Assembly (NCBI RefSeq): GCF_013912375.1
Contig: NZ_JACETV010000001.1
Location: 868,001 to 932,000, forward strand
Direction: 5' to 3'
Source: Emticicia sp. BO119
GTDB lineage: Bacteria; Bacteroidota; Bacteroidia; Cytophagales; Spirosomataceae
DNA: 64,000 bases
A program made the translations under genes and the position numbers. The number at the start of each line of letters is the position of its first letter. Position 1 is the first letter of the stretch. The notes below the pieces were generated by a model. That model was given only the letters and a program-made list of their open reading frames with translations. It ran no database searches and was not told the origin of the DNA. Positions 11,551 to 18,919 of this stretch are shown here, piece by piece.

Positions 11551-12474
11551 TTATGCTTTCATATACCGATTTCGCAATAGGTCTTTCATATAGACGTTAA
11601 TTCCCCATTGGTCAGCTAAGGGTTGGTTGGTGTAGGGGAGGGTAGGTAAGTAATTAGGTGGGCCGAACTCTGTGAGTATTGTTAAGGTATCGCCTGATTT
11701 GGCTTTATATTCTACTACTTTATCCCACCATGCCAGATGAGCCTTTACAACGCTTTCCCATTCAGGGGCCCTTGGATCGTTTACCTGAGGACCTTCCTGA
11801 TGCCCGATTCTTGAATGAATATGGTCAACTCTTGCCAAAGCAGCCTGAACTGCTTCTGTCTGGTCTTCCAGCAAAGATTCATGCACATTGCACCAGTGAG
11901 ATATATCTAAGGTAAGACGTAAAGCGGGGTTTTTCTCAATGAAATTATGAGCTATATGTGCAGCAAAAAGCATACGTCCGCGATGTGTTTCGTGTAATAT
12001 CTTTATGCCGCTTTTCTGATTGGCTTCTGCTGTATGGTCTATAAAAAGTTTGTTCTGTTCGTAAGTAAAATAATCCCGTCCGCTATGGCAGTTAATATAT
12101 AAGGGTCTCTTTGGTGACAGTGTTGCCGCATTGATAGCTTTTTTGAAAGTCTCCAAATGTTCTTTAGCGTCTTTCTGATAACCTCCACATAGAAACCCAA
12201 CTTCTAACTGATATTTATCTAAGGCCGTAAACAATTCCTGTTGGTCTTTTTTTTCAGTAGGCCACCAGACTTCAATGCCATCATAGTTTTCTTTTTTTAC
12301 CGCTGCGCAAAAGGCCTCTGTATTCCCGGGGAAGCCCCAGTTAGTGGCCAGGATCTTTAATTTTAAAGCTGCATTGTAAAGGCGTTGGTATTGAGTTTGT
12401 TCAGCAACCGTCTGAATAGAGTGAAGTATCATTCCTCCTCCGGTGCTTGTGCCTAAAAAATCTCTACGGTTCAT
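11551..12474 (-). CDS. Secreted sugar phosphate isomerase/epimerase-like (xylose isomerase-type TIM barrel)
   Basis: A 307-residue protein with a Tat-like leader (MNRRDFLGTSTGGG), so probably exported folded. The rest fits the AP endonuclease 2/xylose isomerase-like TIM barrel: YDGIEVWWP, YINCHSGRDYF, KILHETHRGRML, LTLDISHWCNVHE, DHIHSRIGHQEGPQV and LTILTEFGPPNYLP. These supply the Glu, His and Asp ligands expected for a divalent metal site. The substrate is unknown; secreted Bacteroidetes members are usually linked to carbohydrate metabolism. The gene diverges from a 64-aa secreted protein across a 500-bp intergenic region holding the phased repeat array. Confidence 0.85.
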   Translation of the reverse strand: MNRRDFLGTSTGGGMILHSIQTVAEQTQYQRLYNAALKLKILATNWGFPGNTEAFCAAVKKENYDGIEVWWPTEKKDQQELFTALDKYQLEVGFLCGGYQKDAKEHLETFKKAINAATLSPKRPLYINCHSGRDYFTYEQNKLFIDHTAEANQKSGIKILHETHRGRMLFAAHIAHNFIEKNPALRLTLDISHWCNVHESLLEDQTEAVQAALARVDHIHSRIGHQEGPQVNDPRAPEWESVVKAHLAWWDKVVEYKAKSGDTLTILTEFGPPNYLPTLPYTNQPLADQWGINVYMKDLLRNRYMKA

Positions 12475-12640: not shown

Positions 12641-12875
12641 CCAGTTTCTTGTAATAAAATACCACTTATCAGTGAACAGAACCAATTACCGGAAATAAAC
12701 TACCATTTACCGGAAGTATCTTCCAATTAACCTCTATTTTCTGCCATTCAACGAAAGTTCCTGCCAATTTTCCGCTGTTTCCTGCCACTTGTCGATGTAA
12801 TCTACCAGTTATCGCCTTTATGTTACCAAACGTCGCCGTTTAATACCGATTATCTTGGAAATGTCTCCAAAAAAA
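12641..12875. repeat. Helically phased degenerate repeat array, 12 units of 20/21 bp
   Basis: Units start at 12641, 12662, 12682, 12703, 12723, 12744, 12764, 12785, 12805, 12826, 12846 and 12867. The spacing alternates 21, 20, 21, 20 without exception. Each unit begins with a core near CCAnTTAtC (for example CCACTTATC, CCAATTACC, CCAGTTATC, CCGATTATC) followed by 11-12 bp of unconserved, mostly AT-rich spacer. The last unit keeps only CCA. Base 4 of the core is a purine in every 21-bp unit and mostly a pyrimidine in the 20-bp units, so the basic period is probably a 41-bp dimer. Mean spacing 20.5 bp is about two turns of B-DNA. It lies between divergent genes. No reading frame spans it, because 41 is not a multiple of 3. 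Confidence 0.85.
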
Positions 12876-12886
12876 GTTTAAATTTG
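12855..12886 (+). promoter_or_regulatory. Promoter at the end of the repeat array
   Basis: TTG (12855-12857), a 21-bp spacer, and TAAATTTG (12879-12886) match the Bacteroidetes consensus fully. The -33 box lies inside the eleventh repeat unit. The predicted transcript starts near 12893 and has an 89-nt leader before the small secreted protein. A second TAAATTTG at 12929-12936 lacks a TTG at the right distance. Confidence 0.65.
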
Positions 12887-12981
12887 TCACTTCATCGAAA
12901 ACAGTCCCAAAAACCGCTTTGAATGGTGTAAATTTGAATCATCAAACAAAAAGGGAAAATAATATAAAACTATTGAGTAAC

Positions 12982-13176
12982 ATGAAAAAGATTTTTACAA
13001 TTGCTATTGTTACAATTTTAACTTCAACTGCGGCTTTTGCTAACGACGATACTAACAAACAAACTTCTAAGGAAGAAACTTCTAAAGTGGTTATTACTAA
13101 GGAAACAATGAAGTTAATAAAGAAAGAGAGAAAAAAAACAAGCAAGGTTTTCAGAGAAAAAAATCTTGTTTGCTAA
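12982..13176 (+). CDS. Small secreted Lys/Thr-rich protein
   Basis: A 64-residue protein. The signal peptide KKIFTIAIVTILTSTAAFA is followed by a short basic tail rich in Lys, Thr, Glu and Ser (NDDTNKQTSKEETSK..., KKERKKTSKVFREK), ending in a lone Cys. No family is recognised. I start at ATG 12982, which opens the signal peptide; an in-frame ATG at 12919 would add 21 residues with no export logic and overlap the second -7 box. It is the only gene driven from the promoter at the end of the phased repeat array, which makes it the best candidate target of whatever that array binds. Confidence 0.7.
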   Translation: MKKIFTIAIVTILTSTAAFANDDTNKQTSKEETSKVVITKETMKLIKKERKKTSKVFREKNLVC

Positions 13177-13366: not shown

Positions 13367-14539
13367 TTAATCAGTTACACTGGAAATCACACCTTTTGAC
13401 AATTGATTATCAGGAAAGACTTCACGTCCGTTTTTATTAATGAATCCACTTCTACCGAAAAGACTAATTCTTGCCATACCTTCTGAAAAGTTATAAGCGT
13501 CGTCATAAATCAACGGAATAATTTCTTGTCCGGTTTTATCAATGTATCCATATTTTCCATTATTAATAGCTCTTGCATATCCATCTGAATAGCCCCAAAG
13601 GTTATCATACTTTAAAGGCACAATTTCTTTTCCGGTTTTATCAATTACCCCGAATTTTTTGTTGGCATATACGATAATCATCCCTTCTGAAACTCCTTGA
13701 ATAAAATCGTAAGTGCTTGCCACCAAGTCACTACCGGTTTTGTCAATTACTTTCCATTTATCGTTGTTACGAACAACCGCCAGGCCTTCGGCATAATTAT
13801 CTACTTCATCATATTTAGCCGGTATCACAAGGTTATTGTTGGCATCGATAAAACCCCATTTTTTAGCTTCATTTTTTACAGCTGCTCTGCCTTCGATAAA
13901 ACTTTTGGCTCCTTTATGTACCATCGGAATCACCTGATTTCCTTTGGCATCAATAAAACCGTATTTTCCGGCTACTGCTACCATAGCCAAGCCTTCAGAG
14001 AAACTTTCAACTTTATCGAACTGAGGTTTAACTACAAAATGATTTTTTGTATCAATCACTCCCCATTTTCCTGCTTGTTTAACAAAAGCAAGGTTTTCTT
14101 TAAAGCTCAATACTTTATCGTAGTCGAAAGCAACTTTTACTTTCCCCTTTTTATCTACAAACCCCCATTTGTCGCCTAATTTAACTGCGGCTAATGAATT
14201 GGAGAAATTCTGTACTTCTTCGTATTCAAAAGGTATTACTTCTTTCCCTGTTTTATTCATGAATCCCCATTTGCTGTCTTTACGAATTGCGGCCATGTCT
14301 TCGGTCATGTCGTAAGCACTTTCGTATTTTACAGGAGCAACTTCTTTTCCTTGTTTATCAAGAAAACCAACTTTGTCGTTTTTCTCGATACGTACAACAC
14401 CAGATTGAAAATCGGTAAAATTTACGTTTGCAGGAAGCTGAGTTTTTTCAGTTGATTGTGCGAATGCAGTTTGCGCAGCTAATAGTGATAAGCCTAAGAT
14501 TAGACCTTTACCTTTTATTATGTTCGTTCTCAAAGCCAT
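13367..14539 (-). CDS. Secreted WG-repeat protein
   Basis: A 390-residue exported protein. The signal peptide is GKGLILGLSLLAAQTAFAQ. The mature part is almost wholly made of ten WG (KWG) repeats of about 33-36 residues, each with an aromatic-Gly-(F/V/Y)-(I/M/V)-(D/N)-K-x-G core: GFLDKQG, WGFMNKTG, WGFVDKKG, WGVIDTK, YGFIDAKG, WGFIDANN, WKVIDKTG, FGVIDKTG, YGYIDKTG, GFINKNG. WG-repeat proteins are common in Bacteroidetes and probably form a beta-propeller-like scaffold for binding. The ligand is unknown. The gene stands alone, with a strong terminator. Confidence 0.92.
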   Translation of the reverse strand: MALRTNIIKGKGLILGLSLLAAQTAFAQSTEKTQLPANVNFTDFQSGVVRIEKNDKVGFLDKQGKEVAPVKYESAYDMTEDMAAIRKDSKWGFMNKTGKEVIPFEYEEVQNFSNSLAAVKLGDKWGFVDKKGKVKVAFDYDKVLSFKENLAFVKQAGKWGVIDTKNHFVVKPQFDKVESFSEGLAMVAVAGKYGFIDAKGNQVIPMVHKGAKSFIEGRAAVKNEAKKWGFIDANNNLVIPAKYDEVDNYAEGLAVVRNNDKWKVIDKTGSDLVASTYDFIQGVSEGMIIVYANKKFGVIDKTGKEIVPLKYDNLWGYSDGYARAINNGKYGYIDKTGQEIIPLIYDDAYNFSEGMARISLFGRSGFINKNGREVFPDNQLSKGVISSVTD

Positions 14540-18109: not shown

Positions 18110-18919
18110 ATGTTACTTTCAAAAAAACAACTCAGGTATCACCTTCTGGCATGGGGTATGTTCCTGCTTTTGGTTTTTATTAAAGCCAAAGCCATTGATA
18201 CAAATTTCATTATTAGAAACCTCATTTCTTTTATTACGCTTCTTTTTGTGTTTTATATGCATCTATTTATAGTATTTCCTATGATTGGATTAAAAAATAG
18301 TTTGCCTAAGGTATTATCAGGCAGTGTGTCCGTCATTTTTCTGGGAATTATGTTCAGACAAGGTGTTGGCGGTATTTTTCTTCCTGACTCATTCTCACAG
18401 GAGGTATTCTGGGTACAATTCAGGTTAAATCTCTTATTTACTGTCATTAGCCTTGCCTATTGGTTTATTGTCAAAAACAATGACTATAAAAAAATGCAAT
18501 TGCAGAGCAGTATGATTGAGTCAGAATGGCAATTACTTAATCCACAGGACAATCCGCCCCCATTTACTGAATTGCCTGGTAAAATAAGTGAAAGAAATCA
18601 TTTTTTTGTAAAGACAGGAGTCAGAAATAAACTGGTTAAAATTGATTTTTCTCAAATACAATACATTGAAAGCCAGAGTAATTATGTTATTTTCCATCTC
18701 GATTCTGATAAGATAAAAACCTTGGCAAGTTTAAAAAATATTGAGGCAGAAATGCCATCTGATCAATTTATTCGCATTCATAGTTCCTTTATAATCGCCA
18801 AGAGCATTATTACGGGTATAGAAGGAAATATGATGAATACAATTAATAAAAACTTACCTATAGGAGCTAAATATAAGAAAACAGTGCTTTATTATATTGA
18901 ACAAAATACATTACAATAA
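18110..18919 (+). CDS. Membrane-anchored LytTR transcription regulator
   Basis: A 269-residue protein. The N-terminal half (about 1-122) has four hydrophobic segments. A linker (about 125-160) follows, then a C-terminal LytTR DNA-binding domain (about 163-265) with KLVKIDFSQIQYIESQSNYV, FIRIHSSFIIAK and NLPIGAKYKKTV. The linker MQLQSSMIESEWQLLNPQDN is very like the H-box entry of LytS-type kinases (ESExxxLKAQINPHFLFN), but stops at the point where the catalytic His would be. The gene may therefore descend from a fusion between the membrane part of a LytS-type kinase and the effector of its LytR partner. Targets unknown. The serine hydrolase gene begins 129 bp downstream on the same strand. 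Confidence 0.85.
   Translation: MLLSKKQLRYHLLAWGMFLLLVFIKAKAIDTNFIIRNLISFITLLFVFYMHLFIVFPMIGLKNSLPKVLSGSVSVIFLGIMFRQGVGGIFLPDSFSQEVFWVQFRLNLLFTVISLAYWFIVKNNDYKKMQLQSSMIESEWQLLNPQDNPPPFTELPGKISERNHFFVKTGVRNKLVKIDFSQIQYIESQSNYVIFHLDSDKIKTLASLKNIEAEMPSDQFIRIHSSFIIAKSIITGIEGNMMNTINKNLPIGAKYKKTVLYYIEQNTLQ

Follow-up and report, generated by a model that had tools for sequence, protein, structure and literature searches.

An array of twelve to thirteen phased LytTR-type half-sites upstream of a small-protein gene in Emticicia: a predicted extended operator

We found an array of 9-bp direct repeats in Emticicia sp. BO119 (genome G000) that is probably an extended operator of 12–13 half-sites for a single LytTR-domain transcription factor, and the best candidate for this factor is a 156-aa protein encoded at C23. 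The array occupies positions 12641–12875 (plus strand) of the window, which is the whole 64,000-nucleotide stretch of DNA analysed here. It sits on a 1.65-Mb contig and is flanked by a divergent gene for a TIM-barrel-domain protein (11551–12474, minus strand) and a 64-aa ORF (12982–13176, plus strand). Read directly, the twelve half-sites of 9 bp each have the consensus CCANTTAtC, and the array is kept in two relatives, E. agri (G008) and Emticicia sp. C21 (G001). The cores start at 12641, 12662, 12682, 12703, 12723, 12744, 12764, 12785, 12805, 12826, 12846 and 12867, with intervals of 21, 20, ..., 21 bp throughout and spacers that alternate between 12 and 11 bp. The first-pass annotation of this DNA had described twelve cores in just this strict alternation, and all twelve were recovered: CC is present in 12/12, A at the third base in 11/12 and C at the last base in 10/12, with poor core matches in units 1, 10 and 12. 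The array, however, extends beyond these twelve. A thirteenth, degenerate half-site on the promoter-proximal side, TCACTTCATC (12887–12896, plus strand), adds one in-phase step of 20 bp from unit 12, has GAAAA after it and abuts a promoter-like region. In each of the two relatives, and likewise at a second array locus, the final full unit is succeeded by a similar element. Chance, which the annotation had raised as an alternative source of the spacing, did not reproduce it: the longest alternating CC chain had 3 (41 runs) or 4 (19 runs) members in 60 simulated 64-kb sequences (first-order Markov, both strands, dinucleotide frequencies of the window and not shuffled intergenic DNA of the whole genome). 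The longest CC chain on the minus strand of the window is 3, and among the matches listed for the plus strand the chain search returned only the array and its sub-chains.

The anatomy of the array is that of a LytTR-domain operator. In the accessible parts of the literature, LytTR operators appear as pairs of 9-bp direct repeats spaced by 10–13 bp (PMC11347149), as repeats of 9–11 nt with spacers of 11–13 nt and no common consensus (PMC4847170), and in LytTR regulatory systems (LRS) with a spacer of mostly 12 bp (PMC6193735). Like the operators of AgrA, VirR and YpdB, and of HdrR and BrsR of LRS, the array consists of 9-bp direct repeats with spacers of 11–12 bp and lies upstream of a candidate promoter. 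A strict core-pair pattern with either spacer occurs at 9 places in the own genome versus 1 for a reversed control. This array accounts for three of these places and the second array for one, and a further one falls between two LytTR genes on contig C23. The gene 3′ of the C23 pair (G000:C23:422571–423038) encodes the 156-aa protein, in which Pfam finds LytTR only (E = 1.3e–18), and the genes 5′ of it encode a 250-aa LytTR response regulator (receiver and LytTR) and a histidine kinase. Orthologues of the short LytTR gene (E ≤ 1e–20) are present in 21/222 family genomes belonging to 5 genera. The best core pair upstream of it is CCACTTATC-like, matches at 13–14 of 14 positions and is spaced by exactly 21 bp in 21/21 orthologues (330 bp upstream of the match were searched, spacings of 12–39 were allowed and ties were broken towards 20.5 bp). 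A repeat of the search in a named collection, comprising largely the same genomes, gave the pair in 16/16 loci without ties, whereas 0 of 80 control regions taken from these loci reached a score of 13. Since the array has 9-bp repeats with LytTR-type spacers and the same core pair stands before a LytTR gene, we read the array as a LytTR operator, in place of the earlier view that no described family matched it.

The simplest reading of these sequences is that the short LytTR protein would bind its upstream pair and control its own gene. In LRS, as far as the accessible portions of two papers describe them (PMC6193735, PMC4847170), a pair of repeats precedes the gene for a LytTR regulator that lacks a receiver, and such a pair is found here. 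Unlike in LRS, among the ORFs of at least 90 aa in G000 no membrane-inhibitor-like one comes after the regulator gene or was found beside it; the next same-strand ORF of at least 90 aa on the 3′ side encodes 693 aa and has, judged by eye, the look of a soluble enzyme. The short LytTR regulator is present in 10/11 genomes of the genus (G000–G010, among them Emticicia sp. 21SJ11W-3, G002; E. aquatilis, G003; and E. aquatica, G007), and strong array hits in only 3.

The own genome contains 72 LytTR domains, and the array could instead be an operator for another of these LytTR proteins, most likely the 250-aa response regulator beside the short gene. A second LytTR gene does lie within the fetched flank (about 1.5 kb) of the short one in 12/21 loci, the G000 core pair is located between both LytTR genes, and family f19 has a four-unit array followed by a kinase-like gene and then by a LytTR gene whose N-terminus looks, by eye, like a receiver. 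We nevertheless regard this assignment as unlikely: the pair persists in the 9/21 loci that have no second LytTR gene in the flank, and this speaks for binding by the short protein. A search of 30 of the own genome's 72 LytTR loci for CC[AG].TTA.C pairs within 70 bp gave two counts, each at 21 bp, and both are explained by one place, C23:423114, held in two overlapping loci. When up to 2 mismatches were allowed, the loosened pair occurred 45 times in the own genome versus 30 for the reversed control, which is hardly in excess. The window itself has a gene for a 269-aa LytTR protein without a detected receiver domain (18110–18919, plus strand), 5 kb from the array. As a candidate regulator this nearest gene was rejected, for no LytTR gene is found in the stretches around the arrays of E. 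agri (12.9 kb) and Emticicia sp. C21 (16 kb), which were searched with our own LytTR HMM at E 1e–5 in frames of at least 60 aa.

A second array is located at C24:217.9k in the own genome and has counterparts in Emticicia sp. C21 and E. agri. By a lenient chain finder it comprises 7, 7 and 8 units in G000, G001 and G008, the outer units being weak, and its spacings are 21,20,21,21,21,21 bp in G000 and G001 and 20,20,21,21,21,20,20 bp in G008. The second array thus lacks strict alternation, and the strict 21/20 alternation is special to the window locus. The promoter layout is the same at both: each of the three species has TAAATTTG at a distance of 41 bp from the second array's last half-site. 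We searched for further arrays with a model (R2) built from the arrays of the three species and the second locus of the own genome. It matches 38 of 222 family genomes at E ≤ 0.01 and reaches at least 39 bits only in G000, G001 and G008; the training rows match by construction, but they do not include the arrays at the second locus in G001 and G008, which score 48.8 and 39.1 bits. A LytTR gene is found at 6/27 new R2 loci (L089–L115) versus 0/30 own-genome loci taken from another pattern; five of these six genes are the short LytTR gene, so the association is not independent of the result for the 21 orthologues. Emticicia belongs to the Cytophagales. R2 matches 5/390 genomes of the order at E ≤ 1e–4 and 1/395 of the phylum, the latter being the own genome (under strict filters, by which weak matches are lost). 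Two of the five order hits, both from family f19, are four-unit arrays with steps of 20, 20 and 21 bp and cores such as CCAGTTATC and TCATTCATC (L202:2376–2445 and L203:2381–2450). They stand before the kinase-like and LytTR genes mentioned above; the f19 proteins were named by eye, except for the LytTR domain, which was found with our own HMM. Two weak R2 places in the own genome, C12:874990 and C12:725439, show no convincing core chain. The last half-site, CANTTCATCGAAAA, is not enriched genome-wide when up to 2 mismatches are allowed (466 versus 438 for the reversed control), and its four exact matches are the two arrays and two places in apparent coding sequences.

At the window locus the array is in phase and gap-free in the two congeneric species, three with the own one, with the same gene start upstream and the same small gene downstream. 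In contrast, the upstream flank of the array has diverged, with many gaps. Positions identical in all three species make up 92/108 of the core versus 79/139 of the spacers (Fisher test, P = 1.7e–6), or 87/99 versus 77/127 without unit 1, and the per-position conservation peaks over the 9-bp core. The first-pass annotation had proposed selection for a phased protein-binding array or else a structural DNA element. Conservation of phase at the same locus, examined in both relatives, favours the first of these, as phase and cores are kept there with no indel. A structural element, that is, curved or phased DNA upstream of the promoter that acts without a dedicated protein, would agree with the mean period of 20.5 bp, close to two helical turns, and with the AT-rich surroundings. 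We consider it very improbable, given that conservation centres on the cores rather than on the spacers and that in five genera the same core stands as just one pair ahead of a LytTR gene, two copies being hardly enough to phase DNA.

We also asked whether the LytTR-type array is built of larger units. At core base 4 a purine is present in 6/6 odd (21-bp) units and a pyrimidine in 4/6 even units, a split that gives P = 0.06 in the window alone and P = 0.0006 (Fisher test) for the three species pooled, which are related and not independent. The first-pass annotation had taken this split as a sign of a 41-bp dimer; the even units follow it only in part, and the spacers lend the dimer moderate further support. 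For the three species, the mean number of bases shared by spacers two units apart is 4.8, 3.9 and 4.7 out of 11, versus 3.1, 3.0 and 2.95 in shuffles (sd ∼0.46); spacers of adjacent units share 4.1, 2.9 and 3.5, and higher even lags are uneven. Tandem Repeats Finder (TRF) also reports a 41-bp period at 12703–12787. Overall, a 41-bp repeat unit in the array is moderately supported. Spacers at this distance resemble each other more than shuffled ones do, so the array may be the product of 41-bp duplications that retained its phase. The same spacer likeness and TRF period could be the remains of a decaying 41-bp tandem duplication without any current function, which is extremely unlikely in view of the gap-free array and preserved cores in three species next to so diverged a flank.

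The predicted target of the array is the gene for the 64-aa protein (12982–13176, plus strand), whose N-terminus looks by eye like a signal peptide and whose body is rich in lysine; the protein is probably secreted and belongs to no Pfam family. In a search of 58 genomes (the own one and relatives) four matched: the own genome, E. agri (92%), Emticicia sp. C21 (83%) and, weakly, G014 (45%). The orthologue lies 3′ of the array in both E. agri and Emticicia sp. C21. Most of the C-terminal half is common to the three small-protein sequences and a three-codon indel separates them, as would be expected of a gene that is truly coding. Near the weak homologue in G014, the best core pair matches at 12 of 14 positions (spacings listed, 16–32) and none is strong. 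The consensus of the –7 box in Bacteroidetes promoters is TAnnTTTG, and a candidate box of this type, TAAATTTG, is located at 12929–12936 (plus strand), starting 41 bp from the CA of the thirteenth core. Such a box starts 40–41 bp 3′ of the last half-site's CA in 6/8 loci examined. An alternative –7-like box, again TAAATTTG (12879–12886, plus strand), lies directly 5′ of the thirteenth half-site; it is present in both relatives at this locus and absent at the second array locus. With two such boxes, transcription may start after either of them. The array promoter shows no clear –33 box. Plasmid-origin iterons are direct repeats of about 20 bp, and the repeats resemble them in size, but that the array consists of iterons or other replication or recombination repeats standing before the gene by chance is scarcely credible on a 1.65-Mb contig, with the same flanking genes in three species, no replication initiator among the 10 window proteins around the array (Pfam) and the last unit 40–41 bp from a –7 box. 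Beside the small gene, the window encodes a WG beta repeat protein with 8 stretches (13367–14539, minus strand), whose position is kept in E. agri.

If the array is a LytTR operator, each 41-bp module would comprise one 21-bp LytTR pair site and a 20-bp step to the next, and each 21-bp pair would hold two LytTR domains. The 20-bp steps would set neighbouring pairs on about one face of the DNA, where head-to-tail contacts could form, and by cooperative loading an extended complex of protein and DNA might then form in front of a weak promoter. Such a complex would switch the gene for the 64-aa protein steeply, by activation, and the short LytTR protein may also regulate its own gene via the single 21-bp pair. 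In the accessible part of the source on LRS, the repeats of S. mutans LRS operons lie 4–11 bp 5′ of the –35 element, with a bias for 10 bp elsewhere (PMC6193735). If the position of a –33 element is derived from that of the –7 box, the thirteenth core would lie at about this repeat-to-–35 distance from it. More tentatively, and with some doubt on our part, it is possible that on this one promoter the LytTR regulator assembles cooperatively into a phased filament, about 13 domains long and spanning six or seven 41-bp modules, with its affinity spread over many weak sites. Two sites might then drive its own gene, five to seven a non-coding region with a repeated motif and a covarying structured RNA, and the number of sites might encode the order or the steepness of the response. 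Apparently serving one regulator, loci with two half-sites, with five to seven and with about thirteen form a natural series that would allow direct measurement of how site number and phase relate to affinity, cooperativity and promoter response. In turn, the core pair provides a motif with which the regulator's targets can be sought in Emticicia and its relatives; the own genome alone contains 72 LytTR domains.

Several known systems share features with the array. Unlike the LytTR operators named above, which have two half-sites, it has 12–13, in strict 21/20 alternation. ArcA has a helix-turn-helix domain and not LytTR, and unlike it the array has another core and spacing; the paper behind the statement on this protein cited next reportedly concerns, by its title, the architecture of repressor binding sites. 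In the accessible text of a study of BldC, a response regulator written AcrA is said to bind multiple tandem repeats (PMC5859096), and the reference list suggests that ArcA is meant. BldC of Streptomyces is itself a model for how the array may work, with head-to-tail cooperative binding, a variable number of direct repeats and DNA distortion in the part of the paper available (PMC5859096). BldC, however, is a MerR-like wHTH protein that places one subunit on each 9-bp repeat, with the repeats abutting, whereas the array proceeds in steps of 20/21 bp. Among LytTR-type proteins, RcoM-1 and CoxC, which regulate the cox genes of CO oxidation, have operators with more than two direct repeats, namely three (spacers of 12–13 bp for RcoM-1), in the accessible portion of PMC11347149. 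Their cores, TTCNNGCA and TTNNNGCN, differ from that of the array, which has about four times as many repeats. LRS-like operons of Bacteroides, from the same phylum, likewise have direct repeats of 11 bp, separated by 11 bp, 5′ of the operon promoter in the available text of PMC6193735, but they have one pair, and their regulators contain transmembrane segments. No longer LytTR array is named in the open-access titles and abstract openings examined, which is not proof of absence. As far as the accessible parts of these sources go, LytTR operators of two or three repeats are known, as is cooperative binding to many repeats in other families, and 12–13 LytTR-type half-sites would be new.

No clear ORF lies 3′ of the second array, where a conserved hairpin of ∼135 nt is present instead (L083:3654–4400, G000:C24:217.15–217.9k, minus strand, model R3). 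R3 finds it in 15/222 family genomes from 5 genera. Changes on both sides occur in 7/14 predicted pairs of the 15 sequences, and none of the 9 hairpin loci scanned has an Rfam family at the gathering score. The hairpin is hence a candidate new structured RNA. General LytTR control of this RNA is not supported: across the 15 RNA loci, upstream core pairs are strong in G000, G001 and G008, partial in G002 and G007, and not seen in the other 10 (one with a short flank). By a hand tally 14/15 RNA-bearing genomes also carry the short LytTR gene, which may reflect common ancestry only. A ACAATTGCTATTGAG-like motif occurs in several copies between array and hairpin in the three species (L083, L116 and L117) and in one or more copies next to the hairpin in another six genomes of the genus. 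In the window (12968 and 13001), ACAATTGCTATTG is also found at the start of the small gene and CTATTGAGT in its leader. Pairing of the second-locus transcript with the small-gene mRNA was rejected, being no stronger than for shuffled sequences (–68.9 versus a mean of –63.8 and a minimum of –82.0 in 100 shuffles). Lastly, an exact 21-bp core pair at G000:C1:491328–491357 (L031) lies 5′ of an aminotransferase-like gene, a possible further target, and a similar pair in Emticicia sp. 21SJ11W-3 (L123) lies 5′ of a gene with a similar N-terminus.
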